Origin: a candidate division Zixibacteria bacterium CG_4_9_14_3_um_filter_46_8
GTDB taxonomy: Bacteria > Zixibacteria > MSB-5A5 > UM-FILTER-46-8
NCBI GenBank assembly: GCA_002791595.1
Contig: PFXJ01000128.1
Location: 26,365 to 69,871 of the forward strand
Reading direction: 5' to 3'
DNA: 43,507 bases
Positions 17,655 through 33,629 of the stretch are shown one piece after another. Numbering within the stretch: position 1 is the first letter of the stretch; each line of letters begins with the position of its first letter. The translations under genes and the position numbers were made by a program. Below the pieces are notes generated by a model. It was not told the origin of the DNA. It was given only the letters and a program-made list of their open reading frames with translations, and did no database searches.

Positions 17655-20600
17655 ATGGTTAAGAATTTTCGTCTTTATTGCGTGGTGTTATATGTTTTCA
17701 TTGCGGCATTTCAATTCCATCCTGCGTGGGCCTATTCATCCAGAACTCCAGACACTGATGGAGTTACGATTCAAAGCAATGATTCCCGCGGAATAGCATT
17801 TACTTTCCGACCTGGAAAGATGAATTTGGATAGGATTGAAACTGCAAGGGGTGATTTCGATATTATAGGTCTTGAAGATGGTTTTTCGCTGAACAAGCCC
17901 GGTTATCCATCACTACCCGCCCGTAAATTCTATATTGCCTTGCCGCCGGGTTCGTCTCCTCAGACATCGGTCTCGGCGGTCATTGGCACAACGATTTTCG
18001 AATCTCTGAAGCCGGCGCCGTTCGAAGATGGCCAGCCAGTCATCCAGCCGCAGTCAATCTCGAAGGCTCTTTATTCCCAGAATGTGGGGAAGATTCGTGA
18101 TATGGACGTGCTGACGCTGACCGTATTAGCGGCGAACTATAACCCCGCGATTAAAACCGCGGCGGCTTATCGGGCAATAAATATAGATATTCGGTTTAAT
18201 GATAATGATGCCAAGCGGTATGAAACAGTTGGGGAGGATAGATTTGCGCGCAAGATAATGAAGAGTCTCTTGTTGAATTACGAAAACTCCAAAGGATGGC
18301 ATTATCGCTTGGATTCAGCGGCAAGTATGGCTTCAGGCTCCCCATTCGATTCCGCTTTTACCTGGCTCAAATTTAGGACGACCCAAGAAGGGATTCACAA
18401 GATAGATTACTACACTCTCTCCGCATCGGGAGTGCCGCTGGCGGAAATAGATCCCCGAACCATAAGAGTATTCGGGTCGGAGGCCAATGAGTTGCCTCCG
18501 GACAATGATGATCCTTACCCGATGCTCAGAGAATTGCCGATTTATGTTTATGGTTCAGAGGACGGCAGCTTTGACAAGACTGATTATATATTTATGTATG
18601 CGCCGGCAGTAAATAGATTCGAATATGACAGTACTTCCGGGCGCGACTTTTATCATTATAATCACTACACAGCCGAAAATTCCTTTTTCTTTACTTATGG
18701 AACCAGCCAATTTAATGAGCCGCCCCGAAGATGGAGCGAGGTGAATATTGATGTGACGGATTCCCAATTGCCCACGGCCAGCACTTTCTATGATTTTATT
18801 CGTGTCGAGCAGAACAAGATGCTCTGGAGGGATAGCGAGGGAAGCATTCAGGATTTTTACGAGTGGTACTGGGAAAGCGGAACATCATTTGATCGATTCA
18901 CTAACGAACAGCTCTTTGATGTGGTTGCCGGTGACACGGGCTGGGTTTACAGTCAGAGCCGCGCTTCTCAGGCAACCGTCAAGGTCAATGGTCAGCCGGC
19001 GACATTCATCTCTTATTCTTCATCCAGTTGGATTACCACCTCACAGACGTTTAATTTTCAGAATGGGCTGAACGAATTGGAATTCGGCTACTCTGGCAAC
19101 GTAACCTTCAATTATTTCGACTTACAATATAATCGTGGCTTATCGGTGGTCAATGATCATTTGCGCTTCCGGGCGCCCAGACAGGCGGGCACATACATAT
19201 TCAGCCTCAATAATGCCGATCCCCAGTATTTATTGTTAGACATCACCGACCCGCTGTCGCCGAGGAAGCTGGTGGGAGGCAACCTCCAGAGCAACAGTTG
19301 GAGATTTCAGTATGCATCAGAGGGACTAAAATCCAATTTCTTTTATGCGGGGCCTTCCTCCCATAAGACCGTCTCCTCTATGGAATCATATTCTCCTGCG
19401 GGTTTGAGAAGCATCTCCAATTCGGCTGATGGAATCATTATTGTATATGATAGTTTCCGAAAACAAGCGGAGCGGCTGGCATCGCATCGTTCATCATTTA
19501 GCGGATTAAATTATTATATTGCTGACTTATCGGATGTATATAACGAATTCGGATGGGGCCGGTCGGACCCTCTTGCCATCCGTTATTTCTTGAGGTATGC
19601 TTTTGAGAATTGGAACGGCACAAAACCGGTCTCATGCACGCTGATAGGCGATGGTCATTATGATTACCTTGATAACTGCAATTTGAATATCCCCAGTTAT
19701 CTGCCTCCTTTCGAGTATCCCCTGGGTTCACTAAAAGCTTGGGCTTCAGATGACAACTATGTCTTTTTCGGCGCTCACGGGGATTACGATAGCGACAATT
19801 CCGGTTTTCCAGATATGATCATCGGCAGATTGCCGGTGAAATCCGCCGATCAACTCTCGGTGGTCATAGACAAGATTATTGACTACGATGCAGGATCCGA
19901 TCTTGGTGAATGGAAGAATACCATAACGATCGTGGCTGACGACCAGTTTAGCTCTGATAGCGACACCGAATGGTTTCATACTAGTCAGGCAGAAACTCTC
20001 AGTAAATATCATACTCCGCCGTCTTATAAACTCAATAAAATATATGCCATTGATTACCCGATGGAAGAAGGCAGAACTAAACCTTTGGTAAGAAAATCAA
20101 TCATCGATTCATTTAATAATGGGTCTTTGATAATTAATTACATCGGCCATGGTAACAAAAACGTTTGGATGCACGAGCATACATTCAGGAAGACCGAAGA
20201 TCTGCCCCACCTGACCAATCGCAAAAGGCTGCCTTTGGTTTTCGCCGCATCCTGCAGTATTGGCGATTTCGATGATCCCACCGATGAAGGAATGGCTGAG
20301 GATTTGCTCCGGGCCAGCAACGGCGGCGCAATTTCGGTAGCATCGGCAACCAGGGGAGTTTATGCCGGTGAAAATGCAGCCCTTAATAACGCATTCTTCG
20401 ATTATATGCTCAGCCCGGATTCCCTCTCGATTTCAGAGGCCTTCTATGTGGCCAAACTGAGCCGGGGTTCCAAACCCAATGATTGGCGCTATACATTATT
20501 TGGAGATCCTGAACAAACTCTTGGCAAGCCCGATTTTCATGTCGCCATTAATTCAGTGGTCTCCGGAACAACGGCTGATACGCTCAGTGCGTTGGCGCTG

Positions 20601-21578
20601 GTAACCGTGACCGGCCAAGTTCAATATCAAGATGGAACGCCGGCCGGCGATTTCAACGGCGTCGTTTATCTTAATGCCTATGATGCCTTGCGAGTCATTC
20701 CTTATGGCACAGTTTATACTTACAAGCTACCTGGAAATATCTTGTTCCGCGGCCCATCTGATGTCCAGAACAGCATCTTTACTTCAAGATTTCTGATGCC
20801 CAAAGATATCGATTATGGCCAGAGTACGGCCAAAATAATCGCCTATACGATTGACGAGAACCAAAATATTGATGGCGCCGGATATCGGGATTCCTTGTAT
20901 CTGGGCAGAGCGACTGAAGCCTTGAATGATTCATTGGGACCGACTATGACCGCCTACATCGATAACAAAATCGTTAGCGGGAGTTTTATGACTGTTGGGC
21001 CCAGCTTCAACTTTATGGCGGTCCTTACTGATTCCAGCGGGATTAATATGACCGGCCAAGCTGGCCACTATATCTCATTGGTAATCGACCATGGCGAGTC
21101 CTTGAACGCCAATGTAACCGATTATTTCGAATATGATATGAATAATTACCAGACCGGGACGCTGGATTATCGAATTGAGGATTTAGCCACCGGAGATCAT
21201 CATATCGAGCTGAAAGCCTGGGATAATTTTAATAACTCTGCTCTGAAATCCTTCACGATCAATGTTGTTTCTCAAGAGCAGACCGAATTGTTGGATGTGA
21301 TGAATTATCCTAATCCGTTCAAAAACAATACGGTTATTCAATACCGTTTGAATCGCGCCGATATATCCAAAGTCGAAGTAAAAATCTACACGCTTTCTGG
21401 TCTCTGGATCAGAACTCTTAAAAACTGCCCATCAGATAATTCTTATAATTTCGTGGAATGGGATGGACGGGATGCCGACGGTGACGAAATCGCTAATGGA
21501 GTGTACATATATAGTGTCATCGCCGCAGGTCCCGGCGGGAGATCGGAGAACATTCAAAAAGCATTGAAACTTAGATAG
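17655..21578 (+). CDS. porU: Type IX secretion system sortase PorU-like (C25 gingipain-family) with its own C-terminal CTD-like domain
   Basis: 1307 aa; TLIGDGHYDY, SDDNYVFFGAHGDYDSDNSGFPDMIIGRLPVKSADQ, LIINYIGHGNKNVW (His) and LPLVFAASCSIGDFD (Cys) typical of C25/PorU; C-terminus MNYPNPFKNNTVIQYRL...NGVYIYSV. Confidence 0.88.
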   Translation: MVKNFRLYCVVLYVFIAAFQFHPAWAYSSRTPDTDGVTIQSNDSRGIAFTFRPGKMNLDRIETARGDFDIIGLEDGFSLNKPGYPSLPARKFYIALPPGSSPQTSVSAVIGTTIFESLKPAPFEDGQPVIQPQSISKALYSQNVGKIRDMDVLTLTVLAANYNPAIKTAAAYRAINIDIRFNDNDAKRYETVGEDRFARKIMKSLLLNYENSKGWHYRLDSAASMASGSPFDSAFTWLKFRTTQEGIHKIDYYTLSASGVPLAEIDPRTIRVFGSEANELPPDNDDPYPMLRELPIYVYGSEDGSFDKTDYIFMYAPAVNRFEYDSTSGRDFYHYNHYTAENSFFFTYGTSQFNEPPRRWSEVNIDVTDSQLPTASTFYDFIRVEQNKMLWRDSEGSIQDFYEWYWESGTSFDRFTNEQLFDVVAGDTGWVYSQSRASQATVKVNGQPATFISYSSSSWITTSQTFNFQNGLNELEFGYSGNVTFNYFDLQYNRGLSVVNDHLRFRAPRQAGTYIFSLNNADPQYLLLDITDPLSPRKLVGGNLQSNSWRFQYASEGLKSNFFYAGPSSHKTVSSMESYSPAGLRSISNSADGIIIVYDSFRKQAERLASHRSSFSGLNYYIADLSDVYNEFGWGRSDPLAIRYFLRYAFENWNGTKPVSCTLIGDGHYDYLDNCNLNIPSYLPPFEYPLGSLKAWASDDNYVFFGAHGDYDSDNSGFPDMIIGRLPVKSADQLSVVIDKIIDYDAGSDLGEWKNTITIVADDQFSSDSDTEWFHTSQAETLSKYHTPPSYKLNKIYAIDYPMEEGRTKPLVRKSIIDSFNNGSLIINYIGHGNKNVWMHEHTFRKTEDLPHLTNRKRLPLVFAASCSIGDFDDPTDEGMAEDLLRASNGGAISVASATRGVYAGENAALNNAFFDYMLSPDSLSISEAFYVAKLSRGSKPNDWRYTLFGDPEQTLGKPDFHVAINSVVSGTTADTLSALALVTVTGQVQYQDGTPAGDFNGVVYLNAYDALRVIPYGTVYTYKLPGNILFRGPSDVQNSIFTSRFLMPKDIDYGQSTAKIIAYTIDENQNIDGAGYRDSLYLGRATEALNDSLGPTMTAYIDNKIVSGSFMTVGPSFNFMAVLTDSSGINMTGQAGHYISLVIDHGESLNANVTDYFEYDMNNYQTGTLDYRIEDLATGDHHIELKAWDNFNNSALKSFTINVVSQEQTELLDVMNYPNPFKNNTVIQYRLNRADISKVEVKIYTLSGLWIRTLKNCPSDNSYNFVEWDGRDADGDEIANGVYIYSVIAAGPGGRSENIQKALKLR

Positions 21579-21666: not shown

Positions 21667-24276
21667 ATGAAAACCCTATTGACCGCCATATTGGCGATAT
21701 TATTGATCTGCGGGATAGTGGCCGACGCAAATGCTCAGGTCAGCCGTGCCGGAGTAATCTTTCTGCTCCTTCCCCCAGGAGCACGAGCATCGGGAATGGG
21801 TGACGCTTTTACATCAATCGCCGATGATGCCACCGCAACTTATTGGAATCCTGCCGGGTTAGGGCGGTATCCATTATCTCCTACCTGGTTTGATTTCCCC
21901 AATAATTCCGGACATAAGATCCGCCAGATTGCAGTTCTTAAAAATGGATTGCCCGATAACAATTATCGAAAATATGACACCTGGGCAATTCTCGACAATC
22001 AATTGGCCCGGTTTGATGGCGAAAAATGGATATTCGGAGATAAATATTATCCGGTGGCTGGAGAAAATGCTGATGATATTGCCAGAAGGTTTTCCGGGGT
22101 GGAAAATACCGATAGCCTTGCGGTTCTAAAACAGAAACTGGCTTCAGTAAATAATGTAATAGGCAAAGCCGAGTTGGTGGCCCTGATTAACAAGATTCAG
22201 GAGAATATTCCGGCCGATTATGCATATATCGAAGATGTGAAATATTCATTGGAATCGTTGCTCAATTCTTGGGCGGAACTTACCATCGATAAGGTGAAAT
22301 ATCAGAAGCTACAGACTTTGGTTAACGAATCGTTGCAGGACGGCGCCTTCAGCGCACTGGAATTTGATAAGGTTACCTTCTCAATCAATAATGCGATTGC
22401 GATACGATTACCGGAGGAACTGGATATCCCCTTTAATTTCGTGCTTCCCGATACCCTGACCATACTGGCTTCCGATGGTGAAGAGCTTTGGCTGGGGACG
22501 CCTTATGGCCTGCATAAATACAATGGCAAACGTTGGACCTCATACACAACTGAGGATTCCTTGATTTCCAATGATATTACCGCTATTGCCTTCGGGAAAA
22601 TGCAATCGGTTTGGATAGGGACCGCGGACGGCCTTTCCAGATTCGCGGGCAGAAAGTTGAGCTCTTTTACAGTCGATAATGGACTTCCCGCGAATCGAAT
22701 CGAGCAAATAGCTATAGGCAAAGGAAATGATATCTGGGTCTCGACCGATAAGGGGCTTGCCAAGTTCGATGGCAGCCAATTCAAATCTGCGCAAGACCAT
22801 CCCGTTAATGTCGGTGAAGACCTTACCAGGATTGCCGCCAAATTCGTCCATCTCAGGCCTGGGCCGGCGCTTGATGCTGTTGCGAAGGCAATAAGGGAAT
22901 ACAATGCTTTGGGCGATTCAACGCTTCAAACTGGAACAAGTATCAAACTCCCGTTCTCAGCGGCCATCAAAGGCAATATTAATGCCATCTATACAGATCC
23001 GGAGGGCATTCTGTGGGTTGGAACCACTGAAGGATTGGTTGGTTACGATGGCGATTCCTGGGATTATCAAGGATTCAAGCAATTTACTGGCAAACAGGGT
23101 GATACCGCAGAAAAAATTGCCATGGGCATTTTGGGAGCCAAGGCGGGTGGAGATAATATCTCCCATCTTGCAGGGAGAATTACCCATTTCAACAGTCTTG
23201 ACGAACAGCCGATCGACGCGGGAGATATGATTTATGTCCCATCTGCGCCGGTTGCCTCGGAAATTATTTCTCTGGGCGGTCTGGATGGCGGTGATGTTTT
23301 GGCAGGTACCAAGTATGGGCCCTTCACGAAATCCGGCGATACCTGGAAAAGGTATATGCACGCTGATCTTGACAAGGCGGAAGTGCTTAGCGTTATCCAG
23401 AAAGAAGGCGAAGTCTGGCTGGCCAGCAAGGACAAGTTGGTTATTAATGCCCATTCCAAACGTGAAATGTCATTTATGCACAGCAACTGGCTTCCTTCCT
23501 TAGCAACTGACATATATTTTGAATACCTCTCGTATGTTCAACATTACCAGGGGATAGGCACTTTGGGCGGGGCAATCACCTTCCTCTCTTATGGCGAGCA
23601 ACAGAGAACAGGAGAACAGGGCGAGGACCTGGGCACATTTTTCTCCTATGAGATGGCCTTGGCAGTGAGTTATGGCGCGAAAATCAACGAGAAATTGGCG
23701 TTGGGGTTAAGCGCGAAATATATAAATTCGCATTTATCGGATCTTGGGGCAGGGCAGGAGAAAGGATCCGGAACCGCATCTTCATTCGCAGTTGATGGCG
23801 GCATGCTATGGAGAACGCCTGTCAGAAGGCTGACCATGGGCTTGACCATAACCAATATCGGACCCGATATTTCTTACATAGATGCCGCCCAGGCTGACCC
23901 GTTGCCAAGAAATTTGACTCTTGGTCTGGCTTACGAGCTCTTCAAGAATCCCTATAATAGACTCACCATCGTAGGCGAGGCTTCAAAACAGCTCATCGAT
24001 CTAACTAAGTTCAATCGTGATTCATTCACGGGCAAGATCGGCGAGAAAATGGAGGAAGTCATCGCTCATATCGGAGCGGAATATTGGTATGGAACATTCC
24101 TGGCTCTGCGCAGCGGGTTTGTGAACGATAAAGCCGGACATCAAAGATACTATACGCTTGGAGCGGGTTTGCAATATTCCAATTATCGGTTTGATTTTTC
24201 TTACATACCATCGACCTCAGAGGAATTCAACCGGTTGGGCAATACGATGAGATTTTCAATGACCGCGAGATTCTAA
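21667..24276 (+). CDS. PorV/PorQ-family outer-membrane barrel with inserted beta-propeller and LysM-like modules
   Basis: N-terminal GARASGMGDAFTSIADDATATYWNPAGLG and C-terminal HSNWLPSLATDIYFEYLSYVQ...GTLGGAITFLSYGEQ...ending SMTARF (terminal Phe), separated by about 530 aa of propeller-like repeats (LWLGTPYGLHKYNGKRWTSY, VWIGTADGLSRF, LWVGTTEGLVGYDGDSW) and LysM-like segments. Confidence 0.85.
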   Translation: MKTLLTAILAILLICGIVADANAQVSRAGVIFLLLPPGARASGMGDAFTSIADDATATYWNPAGLGRYPLSPTWFDFPNNSGHKIRQIAVLKNGLPDNNYRKYDTWAILDNQLARFDGEKWIFGDKYYPVAGENADDIARRFSGVENTDSLAVLKQKLASVNNVIGKAELVALINKIQENIPADYAYIEDVKYSLESLLNSWAELTIDKVKYQKLQTLVNESLQDGAFSALEFDKVTFSINNAIAIRLPEELDIPFNFVLPDTLTILASDGEELWLGTPYGLHKYNGKRWTSYTTEDSLISNDITAIAFGKMQSVWIGTADGLSRFAGRKLSSFTVDNGLPANRIEQIAIGKGNDIWVSTDKGLAKFDGSQFKSAQDHPVNVGEDLTRIAAKFVHLRPGPALDAVAKAIREYNALGDSTLQTGTSIKLPFSAAIKGNINAIYTDPEGILWVGTTEGLVGYDGDSWDYQGFKQFTGKQGDTAEKIAMGILGAKAGGDNISHLAGRITHFNSLDEQPIDAGDMIYVPSAPVASEIISLGGLDGGDVLAGTKYGPFTKSGDTWKRYMHADLDKAEVLSVIQKEGEVWLASKDKLVINAHSKREMSFMHSNWLPSLATDIYFEYLSYVQHYQGIGTLGGAITFLSYGEQQRTGEQGEDLGTFFSYEMALAVSYGAKINEKLALGLSAKYINSHLSDLGAGQEKGSGTASSFAVDGGMLWRTPVRRLTMGLTITNIGPDISYIDAAQADPLPRNLTLGLAYELFKNPYNRLTIVGEASKQLIDLTKFNRDSFTGKIGEKMEEVIAHIGAEYWYGTFLALRSGFVNDKAGHQRYYTLGAGLQYSNYRFDFSYIPSTSEEFNRLGNTMRFSMTARF

Positions 24277-24284
24277 TTTGAGGA

Positions 24285-27200
24285 GTGGGAATTTTGGTTA
24301 GTTGGTTATCTTTTAAGCGATTCATAATCTCCGCCATTATTGCATTATTGACGATGTCTGCTGCTTCGGCATCGAAGGAAATCCTGAATATCGAGAAAAT
24401 CGTGAAGCCGGGCTCCAGCCCATACTCTAAGATTATGCCCGGCAACCGCCCGGAATTTGTTTCGGATGTCTCTCGAAGCAATATCCTAAAGCTTGATCGT
24501 GAGCGTCCCGGAGCTCTTCCTTTTGCTCGAAAAGGTTTGCCGCTTGACGTCTTCCAGGTCGATACCCTCACGGTGCTTGGTTTGCGGGTGCAGTTCAAAG
24601 AAGAAACCCCGAACGATCCGCTGACTACCGGCAATGGGCTGTTTGATATGAGGGACACCCTGCAGTTCAAAGAGGAAGAGGGCCATTACTTCGATACCTC
24701 TCCCCACAATAAAAACTATTTTGCCGCCCATTTGCAGGCGATGTCGCACTATTGGTGGGAGATGTCCGGGCATACTTTGGTCATTCAGTATGAAATCTGG
24801 CCTCCCGGAGTCGATTCCGTTTATCAACTCGATAAGACGAATGGGTATTATCACGAGGAATATGGTGATGACCCGCGCAATGTGCTTGGCGGATATTTCA
24901 AAGATGCCATCGAGTTGGCGGATTCGATTTCGCCGGATTTGGATTTTGCTCAAGCTGATGGCCGTATCAAGCCCATAATAATATTCCACCCCGGATCGGA
25001 TCGACAGAATGATTACAATGGCGACTCACCGCGCGACTTCTACACCGGTTTTCTGTTTCTTTTTGAGCCGGTCGTGGTCGATTCTGGCGCCAATCAGGTT
25101 TCTGAAGGCATTATTATGCCGGAGACCACGACTCAGGATAGGCCCTCGATTGAATGGCCAGTCGGTGTTCTGAACGGAGTGATGGCGCACGAATTTGGCC
25201 ATGTATTGGGGACGCGAGATTTTTATAGTACCTGCAACTTTGGGACCCGCATCGGAGATTTCTCTCTGATGGATAATAACTTCTCCACCACGGGTGCAGA
25301 CTTTGGAGCGAATATCCCTTTCGTCTATGGAGTTCTGCCGGCATCTCTTGATATCTGGACCAAAGCGTATCTCGGTTTTATCAATCCAATCACTGTCACG
25401 GATTCGACCGGAATCGGGATTGTTGCGGCAGGAATGAACAAAGAAGGAACCAAGTGCGTGAAAGTCCCCATCGATAATTATGAATATTTCGTCATCGGGA
25501 ATCATCAGAAGGAGATCGATTATGATGTTTCCAATCCAAACATAGACTATCCTAATGTTATTCTATTGGATAAGGTGACCAGCGTGGTTATGGGGCCGGG
25601 ATATGCTATAACTGATGCGGACACCTTGATCAAAGTAGTGACCGGAGAATACGACCGACTTCTCGATACACCTCCAGAGAATACCAAAGGCGGGATTCTG
25701 GTATTTCATATCGATGAGGTGGTGGCTTATAGCGATTTCTTCGGGGCGGGAATAGGCAACTGGGATCTTAATACTCTACAATGTGATACATCCCGTTGGT
25801 TCATTCGGGTCGTTGAAGCGGATGAGGAAGTTACTTTCGGAAATATCTACCATGCCGGCACCGGCTCCACCGAAGACCTATATCCGTTCGGGAGCAGAAA
25901 TATGCTCAACCCGGACACCAGGCCGTTTTCGTCGGGATCGAATTCCGGAGCCAATACCGGAATTTCCATCAGCAATATTACCGCGCCTGATTCCATTATG
26001 TATATCGATGTGAAGGTGGATAGGCATTTACCCGGATGGCCCAAGAATTCGGTTCCGGGGAATGTAGCCTCACATCCGGTTCCGGTGGATGTCAATGTCG
26101 ATGGCAAAATGGAAATTTTCCAAGCCAATCAATATATACTGACGGGATTCAATTCCGATGGCTCAGGGATTATCAATAATGACTACTCGCTGCAATTATT
26201 AGGATTTGATAATAAGCCGATATCGATTCCGCTCAAGGTTTTCGCCCTTCTGCCAGATTCCATCAGCTATGTCGGAACTCCTTCTGTAGGAGATTTGGAT
26301 GGAGATGGGACCAAAGAGGTGGTTATTGGGGCAAATGATGGCAATCTATATGTGTATAAGGCAAGTGATGGTGATGCCGATGGCTTGGCTGACTTGGCAA
26401 GCGGCTTTCCGGTAGAGCTTGGCGCCGCCGCGGCTGTCACGCCTATTTTGGGCAATTTCGATTCTACCGTTACCCTTGAAATCTGCATGGCCAATATCAA
26501 TGGGAAAGTTACTGTTCACGACCATTCCGGGAATTTGATTTCAGAGGCCGACTCCATTCCCGGCGTACCGAGGGGATTGGCGGTGGGCGGCGACCCAAAT
26601 GCAATTGCTTTCACCTGCAACCCAGCCGATTCGCTCTCCGACAGTTCTTATGTCGGAATGATTCGCCTCGGCGAACATCAGGTCTCCTGGAAGCGGGGAT
26701 ATTTCGATACTTATCTTTATGAACCGGTTATAGGAGATATTGAAGGGGATGAAGTGGAGCAGGTGGTAATAGCTTCCAAGAGCGGCTTAATAGCGGTTTA
26801 CACGGTGCAGGGTGGTGAATTGGCAAATGGCTGGCCTGCGGACGCACAAGATTCGCTTGGCGCCGGCCCGGTCATCGCGGATATCGATAGAAATGGTTTT
26901 GCGGAAATTATTGTGCCAGGTACCAACCAGATTCATTGCTATAGCTTCACCGGCTCGCCGGTGGAGAATTTTCCGGCTGAATTGAATCGGACGCATCCAA
27001 ACGGATTGGTGAATTCACCAGTTATTGTGACCGATGTGGATGCGGATGGATTTCCGGACATACTCGTGGGCGGTCCCCAAAGGGATGTATTCGGATTTAA
27101 TCACAATGGCGGATCACTTGCAATCTTCCCCCTGGCAGTAGGACTGCCGGTTAACTCGTCACCATTCGCCGGAGATATCGACGGCGATGGCGATATCGAT

Positions 27201-27638
27201 TTGGGGGCAAGAGGAGATGACGGGTTTATCAATGCCTGGGATATGGCTCAAACTTTCGTTGACTCACTTAACATTTGGCCTTCTTATGGCGGCGGACCAG
27301 AACATAAGTTCTATCACTCCAAGAACCTCCTCGGGCCGGTGCCGCCATCGGGTCAGCTCTTGTCATCGGTTTATGCCTGGCCGAACCCTTCGCATACCAG
27401 CGCTTCCAACATACATTTCAAGCTTGGTAAGGCCGGCGACGCCCAAATAAATATCAAGATATTCGATGTCGCCGGCAATTTGATGGGTGACTATAACATT
27501 ATCAAAGCAGGACCCGCTGATAACGAATATATTTGGGATAGTTCCGAATTTGCCTCGGGAGTGTATCTGGCAAGGGTCGAAGCCAGATTCGGCGGCGAAA
27601 GCGATTACAAATTCACCAAAATAGCAGTTGTTCGTTGA
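24285..27638 (+). CDS. M6-family (immune inhibitor A-like) metalloprotease with FG-GAP/VCBS-like repeats and C-terminal sorting-like domain
   Basis: MAHEFGHVLGTRDFYST (HExxHxxGxxD); repeats such as GTPSVGDLDGDGTKEVVIGANDGNLYVY and PVIADIDRNGFAEIIVPG; C-terminus YAWPNPSHTSASNIHFKL...SGVYLARV. Start is GTG (24285) or TTG (24294). Confidence 0.88.
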   Translation: MGILVSWLSFKRFIISAIIALLTMSAASASKEILNIEKIVKPGSSPYSKIMPGNRPEFVSDVSRSNILKLDRERPGALPFARKGLPLDVFQVDTLTVLGLRVQFKEETPNDPLTTGNGLFDMRDTLQFKEEEGHYFDTSPHNKNYFAAHLQAMSHYWWEMSGHTLVIQYEIWPPGVDSVYQLDKTNGYYHEEYGDDPRNVLGGYFKDAIELADSISPDLDFAQADGRIKPIIIFHPGSDRQNDYNGDSPRDFYTGFLFLFEPVVVDSGANQVSEGIIMPETTTQDRPSIEWPVGVLNGVMAHEFGHVLGTRDFYSTCNFGTRIGDFSLMDNNFSTTGADFGANIPFVYGVLPASLDIWTKAYLGFINPITVTDSTGIGIVAAGMNKEGTKCVKVPIDNYEYFVIGNHQKEIDYDVSNPNIDYPNVILLDKVTSVVMGPGYAITDADTLIKVVTGEYDRLLDTPPENTKGGILVFHIDEVVAYSDFFGAGIGNWDLNTLQCDTSRWFIRVVEADEEVTFGNIYHAGTGSTEDLYPFGSRNMLNPDTRPFSSGSNSGANTGISISNITAPDSIMYIDVKVDRHLPGWPKNSVPGNVASHPVPVDVNVDGKMEIFQANQYILTGFNSDGSGIINNDYSLQLLGFDNKPISIPLKVFALLPDSISYVGTPSVGDLDGDGTKEVVIGANDGNLYVYKASDGDADGLADLASGFPVELGAAAAVTPILGNFDSTVTLEICMANINGKVTVHDHSGNLISEADSIPGVPRGLAVGGDPNAIAFTCNPADSLSDSSYVGMIRLGEHQVSWKRGYFDTYLYEPVIGDIEGDEVEQVVIASKSGLIAVYTVQGGELANGWPADAQDSLGAGPVIADIDRNGFAEIIVPGTNQIHCYSFTGSPVENFPAELNRTHPNGLVNSPVIVTDVDADGFPDILVGGPQRDVFGFNHNGGSLAIFPLAVGLPVNSSPFAGDIDGDGDIDLGARGDDGFINAWDMAQTFVDSLNIWPSYGGGPEHKFYHSKNLLGPVPPSGQLLSSVYAWPNPSHTSASNIHFKLGKAGDAQINIKIFDVAGNLMGDYNIIKAGPADNEYIWDSSEFASGVYLARVEARFGGESDYKFTKIAVVR

Positions 27639-27690
27639 TCTTTGGAATGAAAAAAATGTCGTTATTTTATACATTGATGAGGAGGTTTCT

Positions 27691-28515
27691 ATGAAAAGCA
27701 TCCCCGCTTTGATTTTAGTGGGAGTTGCCATTATATGGATCGCAGTCTGGCCATCGATAGGCAACGCTTCGGCAGATATGGGTCCAAATGGAATTCATAA
27801 TTATTTCAATGGGCTATCATATTCGTCGGAGGGAATCGCATTCAGCAATGCGGGGGCAAACAGCTATTTTCCTCAAAATGACAAGGGAGAAAGATCAAAA
27901 TCAGGCGATAAAAAATCTCCTGTTAATGCATTTCTTTATTCGCTGGCAATTCCGGGATTGGGGGAACTCTATGCCGGGTCAAGGCATAAGCCATATATTT
28001 TCCTTTACATTGATATGGTCCTCATTACCAGTGAGATGATTTATTTCCAGGAGGGGCTGAATGGTGAAGCTGCTTATCGACGTTATGCCGACCTGCACTG
28101 GTTCCGGGATCCATTTAACATCTGGTGGAATACGCTTGATTCGGCGACACAGGCGGGCTATTCACATCGCTTGCCTCCCACCAATGATTATGAATATTAC
28201 GAAAACATCGGGAAATATGATCAATTTGTATGGGGCTGGGATGACTTCGTCGTGGACGGCCCGGTCTTGACCCCGCACCGGGAACATTACCTCGAATTGC
28301 GCAAGAAAGCGAACGATAAGTTCGACACCGCCCGAACCTTTATGGTGGTGGCGATGGTGAATCATGTGGTATCGGCATTCGATGCGGCATTTACTGCAAA
28401 ATCGTATAACAAGCGGGGCCAGTCCGATTTCTTCGGCAATGTGAAAATAAGGATGTTGCCGGTAATAGCGGATAATCAGGTTTACCCCCAATTAACATTC
28501 ATCAAAGGTTTCTAA
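27691..28515 (+). CDS. DUF5683-like membrane-associated protein, paralog 1
   Basis: ATG 27691 after GAGGAGG; NAFLYSLAIPGLGELYAGSRHKPYIFLYIDM and MVVAMVNHVVSAFDAAFTAKSYNKRG shared with the next gene. Confidence 0.65.
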   Translation: MKSIPALILVGVAIIWIAVWPSIGNASADMGPNGIHNYFNGLSYSSEGIAFSNAGANSYFPQNDKGERSKSGDKKSPVNAFLYSLAIPGLGELYAGSRHKPYIFLYIDMVLITSEMIYFQEGLNGEAAYRRYADLHWFRDPFNIWWNTLDSATQAGYSHRLPPTNDYEYYENIGKYDQFVWGWDDFVVDGPVLTPHREHYLELRKKANDKFDTARTFMVVAMVNHVVSAFDAAFTAKSYNKRGQSDFFGNVKIRMLPVIADNQVYPQLTFIKGF

Positions 28516-28516
28516 A

Positions 28517-29284
28517 ATGGCAGGCAAAACAGTTCAGATTCTAATGACCATAATTCTGTTCCTCTCCTTCTCGAAGATTGTTTATGCCGAGCAACCGCCG
28601 AAAGTTCGCCAACTGATGATTTCCGAAATCAGTTCGGGGGAAGCAGATGCAAATGGCGATAAAGATTTAAATTGGACTGAACCTGAGAAACAACACAAAG
28701 GGAAATCCGGATTCAAGGCCGGTTTGTTATCAGTAATGCTTCCAGGGGCCGGTGAGTTCTACCTCGGCAACAAATCTCGAGCGGCAGTATTTGTCGGCAC
28801 CGAGGCCGCCATTTGGGGCGGCTACCTCGCATTTCATACCTGGGGCGATTGGCTCAAGAACGATTACAAAAGCTACGCCGCCGAACATGCCGATGCGAAA
28901 GTCTATGGAAAAGATGATAAATTTTTCGACCGAATGCAATTTTACGATAGCCGGGATTGGTTTAATGAAATCGAGGGAGAGAGATACGGTTACCCTTATC
29001 CATATACCGATTATTATTACTGGCACTGGGACAGCCCGGATTCGCGCAAGGAGTTTCGTAAAATCCGCTATAACTCCAAAGCCGCTTTCAGAAATGCAAC
29101 CTTTATGATTGGGGTGGCAGTGGTCAATAGGTTGGCCAGTGTGGTCGATGCGGTATGGTTATCAAGACAGATCAAGAAGGGCGAGGGTTTGGAATTTTAT
29201 GGTGGATGGAGGTTGGATTACAACGCCAATCCGTTTGCTAATAACCCCGATGCCTCGCTGAAACTGAGCAAATCATTTAATTGA
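28517..29284 (+). CDS. DUF5683-like membrane-associated protein, paralog 2
   Basis: KAGLLSVMLPGAGEFYLGNKSRAAVFVGTEAA and MIGVAVVNRLASVVDAVWLSRQIKKGEG align with paralog 1; starts 1 nt after it ends. Confidence 0.65.
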   Translation: MAGKTVQILMTIILFLSFSKIVYAEQPPKVRQLMISEISSGEADANGDKDLNWTEPEKQHKGKSGFKAGLLSVMLPGAGEFYLGNKSRAAVFVGTEAAIWGGYLAFHTWGDWLKNDYKSYAAEHADAKVYGKDDKFFDRMQFYDSRDWFNEIEGERYGYPYPYTDYYYWHWDSPDSRKEFRKIRYNSKAAFRNATFMIGVAVVNRLASVVDAVWLSRQIKKGEGLEFYGGWRLDYNANPFANNPDASLKLSKSFN

Positions 29285-30263: not shown

Positions 30264-33200
30264 TTGCTGTTGTCGGCCTCGAAAATCCCCGTTTTTCTTT
30301 TCTTACTGACTATTCTCTTAGCAAAATCCTCATCTTCAAACGCCACTCAGAGGACAGAAGTTGCCCTGAATGGAGATAATTCGACCGGGCCTTATCTCAT
30401 CTCCCATGACCCGATTGCCATGGGAAGCGATTCGATATGGGTGGATGAAGTGCTTTTCCAGAAAAGCGAAAATTATAGCATCGATTACGATAGAGGTTTC
30501 ATCATCACTTCACAACCGGTGCCAAGCTCATCGACGATCAGGGCCAGTTATATCGCCATCTATTCGCGTTTGAATAATCCCCATTATTTGTACAAACCGC
30601 TATCGATTGACCTAAAAAGCGCATTTCCACCGGATTCTTCAAGGCCCGCATTGCAATCAGAAAAACCGCCCAGCTTCTACAGTCCAGGTCTTAATATCGG
30701 CGGCAGCAAATCACTTTCAATCGAGTTTGGCAGTAGCTTGAATCCCGATATAAACCAGGCGCTCGATTTATCAATAAGGGGTCCTGTCGTTAGGGGAGTG
30801 AATGCAACCGCTTTTGTTTCCGACCGGGGTATTCCGGTTGCTTCCGGCGGCACCAGCACTATTGAAGAGCTGGACAAATTCTTTATCAATATCACTGCCA
30901 AAAATTTCAGCGCCACCCTGGGCGACTTTTATGTCGATTTCAATAGCCTGGAGTTAGCGCGATACAATAAAAAATTGAAAGGGCTGGCTCTCAATTATGA
31001 TGATCAGATTAATCAGGGTTCTATCTCAGCATCTTCATCTTCTGGGCGTTTCACCGTGAATCGTTTTAATGGCCGTGAGGGCGACCAGGGACCTTATCTT
31101 CTCTTCGATCCATCCGGTTCCCGCAGTTTAACCGTGCTGCCCGGCACCGAGACCGTTTTCATCAATGGTGAAAAATTGACTCGTGGATCCGACAACGATT
31201 ATGTCATCGATTATCAGAACGCTCATATCACCTTTACGCCAAAAAGATTAGTAACTTCCGATTCGCGCATCGAGGTTGAATTTGAATATTCGAATCGAGA
31301 ATTTTCACGAGGATTTTATGCTTCGCGATTTCACCGCAGCAACCGTGAGGGTCGATTCGCATTCGGGGCCACAGTCATTGCCGAAATCGATGATAAAAAT
31401 GGGCCACTGAGCGCGGCCTTATCCGATGAGGATCGCCAAGCTATCAAGGATTCCGGGATCGGAGAATATGCGCTCAAATCGGGTGTGGAGTATAAGGGAC
31501 CTGGCCAGGGAGAGTATAATCAGGCCGTCGATTCGACCGGATATATCTACTATCTCTATGTGGGGCCAGATTCCGGGGAGTATCATATCCAATTCTCCAA
31601 TCTTGGTTATGGCAAAGGCGATTATACATATATTGGCCGAGGCATCTATTCATTTGTCGGAGTATTGAAGGGCGATTATGCTCCAGTTGTTAAACTTCCA
31701 GTCCCCAGATCGCAATATCTTTATGGATTCGATGGTTCATTCAATCCAAATGATAATGTCAACTTTCAAATCGAAAGCGCTTATACGCGCAACAATAGAA
31801 ATCTTTTTCTGGGAGATAATGGCGTTATTGATGATCCTGCCTTAATACTGCGAGGAAAGGCCGTCACAAAACCTTCATCTTCCTTATTGCCCGATGAAGT
31901 TGTTTTGTCGGGCAACTATCGCCATACCGCCCGGAATTTTGCCCCTTTTGCGGAATTCCGCGCGGCAGATTATTATAACAAATGGAATCTTCTTCCCAAT
32001 TACAGTTCCGTTACCGAAGATGCGGGCGAGGGTGCCTTATCTACGTCATACGGCAGCCGATGCAGCTTTGACTTCGAGGGCGGGCGGTTGTCGAGGGCAT
32101 CGGAAGGTTACTCTGACCGTTGGTCGGCTGGCGCCGCAGTTGAACTTCCGCTTCAGTCTAAGCTACACGGCAATTTCCGTCAATCGGATCATCGGTCCAA
32201 GGCGGACTCTTTATCCAGCTATTTCAATTTAAAGGGAACGCTTCAGGAATTCGATTCACAGTATGAGTTCCGTCAATGGCTATTCAAACCTTCATTGGGT
32301 TATAAATTCCGCAATAATGAGAATTATGAAAACGAGATTCTTCGCGATGGCGTCAGATATAACATCTATGAAACGGGATTAGCGTTCTATGCGCACAAGA
32401 GGATCACCAATACCGTCACCTACTCCCTGCAAAGAGATGATGAATATGCTGGAAAGTGGTTAAGAAAAGATGAAGCAATTACTCTAACTGAGCAAATCGC
32501 GCTGGCGGATATCCCCGCCGGGCTTACCCTGAATTACGAATACACTTTTCGTAACAAAAGATTCAAGGAAATTGCCGGAACCAACAGTCGCCAGAACCTG
32601 TCCTACTTGACCAGCGGTTTTAATTCCGGGCCATTCTCAATCGAATATAATCATAAATATAATCGGATGCGCGCCGCCTTGAAAATACGTCGCTATATAT
32701 TGGTGGACGAAGGCACAGGCGATTATAGCTACGAAAACGGCGAATATGTGCTTGACCCGTTCGGAAATTACATCTCGGTGTTGGAGGAAGCCGGCGATTT
32801 CCGCCCGATATCGGAAGTGGAGAATGCATTTTTCTTCAAATTTGACGGCAGAAGAGCCAAAGATGATTCGTCATATCTCCGGCAATTCAAATCGGAAACC
32901 TCGTTGGATTTCAATCAGAGGTCGGAAGAGACCGGCATCAAGTTCGTCGATATGATTAATCCGTGGCGCAATATGAACCCTGCGCTTCTTGTCAGCGAGC
33001 AACTACGCTTTATCCAGGACGTTTACCTGCTCCCCGTGAACACAAAGATCAAAAGAGAGATTCGTCTAAGGTATGCTCAAACGCTCATTGTCGCCTCTGG
33101 AGGCAGTTTCGAAAGCGACTTTGACGACAAGCGGTCGGCGGCGGCCAGGCTCCGCCAATCGCTTGGGAAAGGATTTTCTCTGGAAGCCGAATATACTCGC

Positions 33201-33629
33201 GAACATCGGCTGGTGGCGGGCATTGCCGAACTACGGATGGATTCGGATCTGTTGGTGCCGGATATCACTTTCACACCAAATGCCGGCCTTGAAATAGGGA
33301 GCGGCCTCAAGTACCGTAGAGATCGCGAAGTCATCGATGAATTTACGGTCATCCTGTACTCATTGCTTCCCCACATCAGATGGAATTTTTCTCAAAAAGG
33401 CCGTTTTGATTTTAATGCTGAAATTATCAGGGTGCTATCGCCGGATGCACAATTCTTCAACTATCGAATCGCGGAAGGCAATCGGGCTGGCGAAAATTTT
33501 AGATTGACGGTCCGCGGCCTCCTGCGCTTGGGGGAAAATAGCGTGGGAGAGCTAACGTACAATTTTCGAAAACGACCCGATGAAAAGGCGATGCATCTGG
33601 CGAGAGTCGAAGTAAAATATAACTTCTGA
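30264..33629 (+). CDS. Large conserved predicted outer-membrane beta-barrel protein (1121 aa)
   Basis: Hydrophobic N-terminal signal; RGPVVRGVNATAFVSDRGIPVASGGTSTIEELDKFFINITAKNFSATLGDFYVDF; VLPGTETVFINGEKLTRGSDNDYVIDYQNAHITFTPKRLVTSDSRIEVEFEYS; alternating-polarity C-terminal region ending VEVKYNF. Confidence 0.65.
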   Translation: MLLSASKIPVFLFLLTILLAKSSSSNATQRTEVALNGDNSTGPYLISHDPIAMGSDSIWVDEVLFQKSENYSIDYDRGFIITSQPVPSSSTIRASYIAIYSRLNNPHYLYKPLSIDLKSAFPPDSSRPALQSEKPPSFYSPGLNIGGSKSLSIEFGSSLNPDINQALDLSIRGPVVRGVNATAFVSDRGIPVASGGTSTIEELDKFFINITAKNFSATLGDFYVDFNSLELARYNKKLKGLALNYDDQINQGSISASSSSGRFTVNRFNGREGDQGPYLLFDPSGSRSLTVLPGTETVFINGEKLTRGSDNDYVIDYQNAHITFTPKRLVTSDSRIEVEFEYSNREFSRGFYASRFHRSNREGRFAFGATVIAEIDDKNGPLSAALSDEDRQAIKDSGIGEYALKSGVEYKGPGQGEYNQAVDSTGYIYYLYVGPDSGEYHIQFSNLGYGKGDYTYIGRGIYSFVGVLKGDYAPVVKLPVPRSQYLYGFDGSFNPNDNVNFQIESAYTRNNRNLFLGDNGVIDDPALILRGKAVTKPSSSLLPDEVVLSGNYRHTARNFAPFAEFRAADYYNKWNLLPNYSSVTEDAGEGALSTSYGSRCSFDFEGGRLSRASEGYSDRWSAGAAVELPLQSKLHGNFRQSDHRSKADSLSSYFNLKGTLQEFDSQYEFRQWLFKPSLGYKFRNNENYENEILRDGVRYNIYETGLAFYAHKRITNTVTYSLQRDDEYAGKWLRKDEAITLTEQIALADIPAGLTLNYEYTFRNKRFKEIAGTNSRQNLSYLTSGFNSGPFSIEYNHKYNRMRAALKIRRYILVDEGTGDYSYENGEYVLDPFGNYISVLEEAGDFRPISEVENAFFFKFDGRRAKDDSSYLRQFKSETSLDFNQRSEETGIKFVDMINPWRNMNPALLVSEQLRFIQDVYLLPVNTKIKREIRLRYAQTLIVASGGSFESDFDDKRSAAARLRQSLGKGFSLEAEYTREHRLVAGIAELRMDSDLLVPDITFTPNAGLEIGSGLKYRRDREVIDEFTVILYSLLPHIRWNFSQKGRFDFNAEIIRVLSPDAQFFNYRIAEGNRAGENFRLTVRGLLRLGENSVGELTYNFRKRPDEKAMHLARVEVKYNF

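Follow-up and report, generated by a model that had tools for sequence, protein, structure and literature searches.

What does a PorV-type barrel do when it lies beside porU and is split by a propeller carrying LysM-type units? The window (the whole stretch of 43,507 nucleotides that was analysed, from a Zixibacteria MAG of 2.7 Mb) encodes such a protein of 869 aa in a single uninterrupted ORF at 21667-24276 on the forward strand. An earlier note on this DNA had read it as a PorV/PorZ hybrid, in which a propeller next to PorU makes a reduced, fused attachment complex. We asked to which family the protein belongs, where its insert begins and ends, how the insert folds, on which side of the membrane it lies, and which reading of its function fits best. 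The features are collected in Table 1.

Table 1. Features of the inserted porV gene and its neighbours (positions in the window; residues are those of the 869-aa protein)
Feature	Position	Strand	Basis
PorU sortase (peptidase C25 + C-terminal sorting domain), upstream neighbour	17655..21578	+	NF033707 720 bits, cut-off 420
Signal peptide, residues 1-23 (ADANA, then Q)	21667..21735	+	read from sequence
PorV/FadL-type N-terminal plug, residues 24-66 (FLLLPPGARASGMGDAFTSIADDATATYWNPAGLG)	21736..21864	+	NF033709/NF033710 first stretch
Insertion, residues 67-598 (~532 aa)	21865..23460	+	missing in plain orthologues at same site
LysM-type unit R1 (121-172) + helical bundle (to 262), between blades 1/2	22027..22452	+	hhalign
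LysM unit R2 (375-429), between blades 4/5	22789..22953	+	Pfam LysM E 9e-4; models
LysM unit R3 (470-525), between blades 5/6	23074..23241	+	b-a-a-b in both models
PorV beta-barrel, residues 596-869, strand 1 = 600-610	23452..24273	+	6h3i_F profile match
M6-type metalloprotease-like T9SS cargo with sorting domain, downstream neighbour	24285..27638	+	NF052323 284 bits, cut-off 600
Two related small membrane proteins, 27628-28515 and 28517-29284	27628..29284	+	kept in cluster

We found that NF033709 matches the protein at 255 bits (cut-off 90), the match being divided between the N-terminus and residues 595-868, in line with the split PorV signature that the earlier note had described; Pfam PorV scores 85.6 bits against a cut-off of 27. 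The PorV equivalog NF033710 gave 192 bits, below its cut-off of 250, and the PorQ score of the same protein was 94. Plain PorV orthologues of other phyla, which have no insert, reach 208-244 bits and likewise miss 250 bits; hence, this cut-off looks tuned to Bacteroidota. The nearest PDB relative is Flavobacterium johnsoniae PorV (6h3i_F, profile match, E 4e-51), residues 1-63 of which align with the plug, and the GAR and NPAGL motifs of the plug are invariant in 27 homologues. Inspection of the signal peptide sequence revealed no lipobox, its sole cysteine (Cys15) lying within the hydrophobic stretch. Many PorV-family paralogues are encoded in the genome, among them a PorQ-like protein (C85, 178 bits), and the 869-aa protein is the top PorV scorer; none of the scanned paralogues exceeds 82 bits with the PorV equivalog, and no second canonical porV was found among them. 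Named relatives with 65-67% identity are Candidatus Zixiibacteriota MAGs. By these profile matches, the ORF product is a PorV-family T9SS carrier of Zixibacteria; it shares the plug, the barrel, the extracellular loop positions and the porU neighbourhood with the PorV proteins of F. johnsoniae (6H3I) and Porphyromonas gingivalis, but has approximately 532 extra residues between the plug and strand 1.

The insert lies between the end of the plug (NPAGLG) and barrel strand 1 (EMSFMHSNWLP). Once it is collapsed, the plain orthologue L132 reads NPAGLG-FQRGF-ELTLMHSNWLP where the inserted form reads NPAGLG-(532 aa)-EMSFMHSNWLP, close to the 530 residues given by the earlier note. In other phyla, the PorV encoded at this syntenic position is plain and 335-409 aa long. 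Hence, the insertion is genuine, with exactly defined borders. In two relatives (L105:9483-12623 and L107:8103-11261), approximately 190 further aa are inserted where the insert starts (after NPAGLG.YPL), and PorV grows to approximately 1050 aa.

The insert matches Pfam Reg_prop at 46 bits. AlphaFold2 of the full-length protein, run on a shallow alignment of four sequences, gave a good model of the insert but none of the barrel (pLDDT 20-30); when the insert was modelled alone (pLDDT 76, pTM 0.73), the strands for seven blades were obtained. The N-terminal strand 72-78 is read as closing blade 7 in the insert-only model. The propeller and LysM composition claimed by the earlier note is what AlphaFold2 predicts, with seven blades and two LysM units that fold as b-a-a-b. 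The insert is predicted to be one closed seven-bladed Reg_prop propeller that carries three LysM-type units.

Two of these units are clear, and the first (R1) is enlarged by a helical bundle (helices 135-243 in the full-length model). All three are homologous to one another, with hhalign probabilities of 97.2% for R1a-R2, 95.5% for R1a-R3 and 98.3% for R2-R3. Pfam LysM scores 19.7 bits in the window protein, slightly below the cut-off of 20.9, and matches 17 of 27 homologues with a best E of 1e-12; it passes the cut-off in L127, a member from outside the class (27.4 vs 20.9 bits), and in the LysM segments of L048 (40.9 bits) and L029. R2 gives E 2e-10 in L048 and R3 E 1e-4 in L029. R2 is b-a-a-b with pLDDT of approximately 76-91 in the full-length model and is poorly modelled in the insert-only run, both on shallow alignments. 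The Asn and Gly residues conserved across 27 diverse homologues are N413, N509 and G519, plus N162 of R1, which is near-invariant. Judged by sequence, the LysM units are degenerate, since R2 lies below the Pfam cut-off in the window protein and R1 and R3 are identified mostly by way of relatives. Their number seems to vary, with R2 apparently absent from L127, and the helical bundle of R1 seems to be missing from the sequences of the three inserted relatives outside the class.

In FadL-type barrels, the plug is followed by a strand 1 that rises from the periplasm, and the C-terminal Phe lies at the periplasmic end; this established layout agrees with a periplasmic insert. Full-length AlphaFold2 gave no barrel, so we argued the side of the membrane from homology. 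In F. johnsoniae PorV, N87 and F115 touch the cargo CTD from extracellular loops, residues 193-199 form a periplasmic loop, and the periplasmic base contacts SkpA (PMC10994853). These positions map to T614, Y642 and approximately 717-719, respectively, with the sides alternating as expected. Since exactly one strand (600-610) separates the end of the insert from the extracellular loop at T614, the insert would start in the periplasm. From these homologies, the insert likely lies on the periplasmic side of the barrel. The SkpA-contacting loop itself (F. johnsoniae 193-199) is largely missing at residues 717-719 (23815-23823), as it is in the aligned plain orthologue.

A mechanism can be proposed in which the PorV barrel would take cargo CTDs from SprA and present them to PorU, while in Zixibacteria the short stretch that links the plug to strand 1 would have acquired a periplasmic module. 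The closed propeller would be the scaffold for the LysM-type units, and the module probably holds PorV, together with the translocon or the attachment complex, against peptidoglycan. Peptidoglycan binding by the insert is plausible from its domain type; a tethering effect on the PorV cycle, drawn from the same domain type, is speculative. We favour, with modest confidence, a PorV carrier whose built-in periplasmic, peptidoglycan-facing module holds PorV to the wall.

A precedent is PorE, which combines a propeller and a peptidoglycan-binding domain in the periplasm and has been proposed as an anchor of the T9SS (PMC7192894). Within PorV, the module may fill the role proposed for PorE, which in Bacteroidota is a lipoprotein of its own. 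Both unite a beta-propeller with a peptidoglycan-binding-type domain in a periplasmic T9SS part, but this is analogy and not homology: P. gingivalis PorE (PG1058) is a separate lipoprotein with TPR, five-bladed WD40, CRD and OmpA_C domains, whereas the Zixibacteria insert is part of PorV itself, with a Reg_prop propeller of seven blades that bears LysM units, and a Pfam scan of the 869-aa protein found none of these PorE domains. A shuttle role of PorV is reported in P. gingivalis (PMC5562754), and a wall-tethered PorV fits awkwardly with that role.

Another reading keeps the insert in the periplasm and sees in it chiefly a platform where cargo, a chaperone, PorW/SprE-like parts or a glycan are docked or sensed, with the LysM units as non-binding structural relics. 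Reg_prop propellers are known as ligand-sensing, and the closest propellers by sequence (4a2l, BT4663, 140 bits) and by fold belong to the hybrid two-component sensors BT4663, BT4673 and BT3049; these, however, are sensor kinases in which two propellers are combined with a Y_Y_Y domain, and they have neither LysM nor a barrel. The contact between SkpA and the periplasmic base of F. johnsoniae PorV (PMC10994853) is consistent with docking. Although many members give only weak LysM matches and a unit may be lacking (L127), the conservation of the LysM Asn and Gly positions argues against relics, as do the scores of L127, above the Pfam cut-off, and of L048. We regard a docking or sensing platform as possible but doubtful.

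This PorV architecture is not confined to the source genome. With a 27-sequence profile, we found the inserted form in 97 of the 98 Zixibacteria genomes that are at least 85% complete, the exception (G104) giving a weak match only; the inserted homologues of the class share 31-67% identity. Such insertions, for which the earlier note had suggested a survey, occur outside the class in three genomes (G283, G135 and G268), and other phyla have the plain PorV, mostly within the same gene cluster. In each of the 23 loci of the class that we looked at, porU is followed by the inserted porV and then by the M6-type gene, and in nearly all of them one or two small membrane proteins come next. Hence, with this conservation and constant synteny, the architecture is not due to chance. 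The barrel tree does not require several origins of the insert and does not demonstrate a single one (AU test for one clade, p 0.09).

An assembly chimaera was ruled out, as independent genomes and named GenBank MAGs show this architecture too. Recent horizontal insertion is unsupported, given that the GC contents of insert and barrel are 0.468 and 0.472 and that the insert is spread through the phylum. A scan of viral contigs found no further relatives. In the literature searched, PorV, LysM and propeller occur together in a single paper, a study on iron deficiency in Bacteroidetes. The propeller-LysM PorV is a variant of a known component, found throughout the phylum and apparently undescribed.

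The barrel adjoins porU, as the earlier note had stated. Downstream, the M6-type product resembles an NCBIfam model for an 'inactivated' M6-like T9SS protein; with its HExxH (MAHEFGHVLG) intact, the product may nevertheless have protease activity. The two small membrane proteins, the first with a weak DUF5683 match, carry PGLGELYAG and PGAGEFYLG, adjoin porU-porV-M6 in other phyla too, and are possibly unknown T9SS parts. Further downstream, 30264-33629 encodes a protein of 1121 aa, a short part of which (54 residues) resembles SprA weakly, at 20 bits; it is kept in family-level relatives and sits upstream of a BamA-like gene. Elsewhere in the source genome (L095:1786-5286, G000:C132), a propeller/BNR-like protein with a CHU_C-type tail is followed directly by two PorV-family barrels, which makes a second propeller-barrel neighbourhood.

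A further reading takes the T9SS cargo role away from the barrel. It could be a FadL-like, OmpA-like joiner of outer membrane and cell wall that sits beside porU by history, as the LysM type and the many PorV-family paralogues that could carry cargo would allow. We consider this very unlikely, since the protein is the best PorV of its genome, its synteny with porU and the CTD-bearing M6 protein is constant, the loops corresponding to those that contact substrate are retained (T614, Y642), and SprA scores above its cut-off in 50 of 50 class genomes.

Under the hybrid reading of the earlier note, the propeller would lie on the surface and do for PorU what PorZ does, delivering a glycan, within a reduced attachment complex. 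PorZ itself consists of two propellers plus a CTD, and its place of action is the cell surface (PMC5121618, PMC8545088). The earlier note had asked whether genomes with this architecture lack a separate porZ; a PorZ-like match is present in 69 of 70 class genomes, nearly all under the Bacteroidota-tuned cut-off. In the source genome it is C126, a full-length protein of approximately 750 aa with a sorting domain, which scores 182 bits over nearly the whole PorZ profile NF052228, below the cut-off of 260. On these matches we reject a replacement of PorZ by the insert, and with the PorQ-like barrel also present, a reduced, fused attachment complex is not supported. Of the canonical genes whose presence elsewhere the earlier note had counted against itself, a porZ-like gene was found and, among the paralogues scanned, another porV was not.

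The insert itself also departs from PorZ. NF052228 matches the 869-aa protein at 27.7 bits over residues 302-376 only, and by sequence the insert scores 27.6 bits to PorZ against the 140 bits to BT4663. Foldseek returned Reg_prop sensor propellers as top matches, with PorZ only 17th and 21st, behind BT4673 and BT4663. PorZ (5M11) has in common a Reg_prop-type seven-bladed propeller and the T9SS context, but it joins two such propellers to a CTD, is a surface-exported protein and has a gene of its own in Zixibacteria, whereas the window protein has a single propeller in its models and closes with the barrel, not with a CTD. Hence, despite the adjacent porU, the shared broad propeller superfamily and the weak PorZ profile match, a PorV/PorZ hybrid is highly improbable in view of the separate PorZ-like gene, the single propeller nearer to other Reg_prop domains, the insertion point on the periplasmic side by homology, and LysM units that point to peptidoglycan.

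SprA, PorU, PorV, PorQ-like and PorZ-like parts are documented here in a phylum for which we found no paper joining the T9SS and Zixibacteria in the literature searched. PorM/GldM (TIGR03517) gave no match in Zixibacteria genomes in a search of 388 genomes, in which two genomes from outside gave full-length matches; the Zixibacteria motor may be either missing or too divergent for this Bacteroidota-built model. It is conceivable, though rather unlikely, that the Zixibacteria T9SS works without a PorM/GldM motor and that its wall-tied PorV is a fixed point of extraction and hand-over that does not shuttle. If true, a motorless, fixed-PorV design would mean different mechanics for the same secretion system. 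The finding bears on two open questions of the T9SS, how PorV is released from the translocon and how the system is fixed to the cell wall, for which the anchoring role of PorE is only proposed so far. A phylum with its own PorV module and lineages with plain PorV at the same locus offer a natural comparison, and the periplasmic function of PorV becomes testable with one purified domain.
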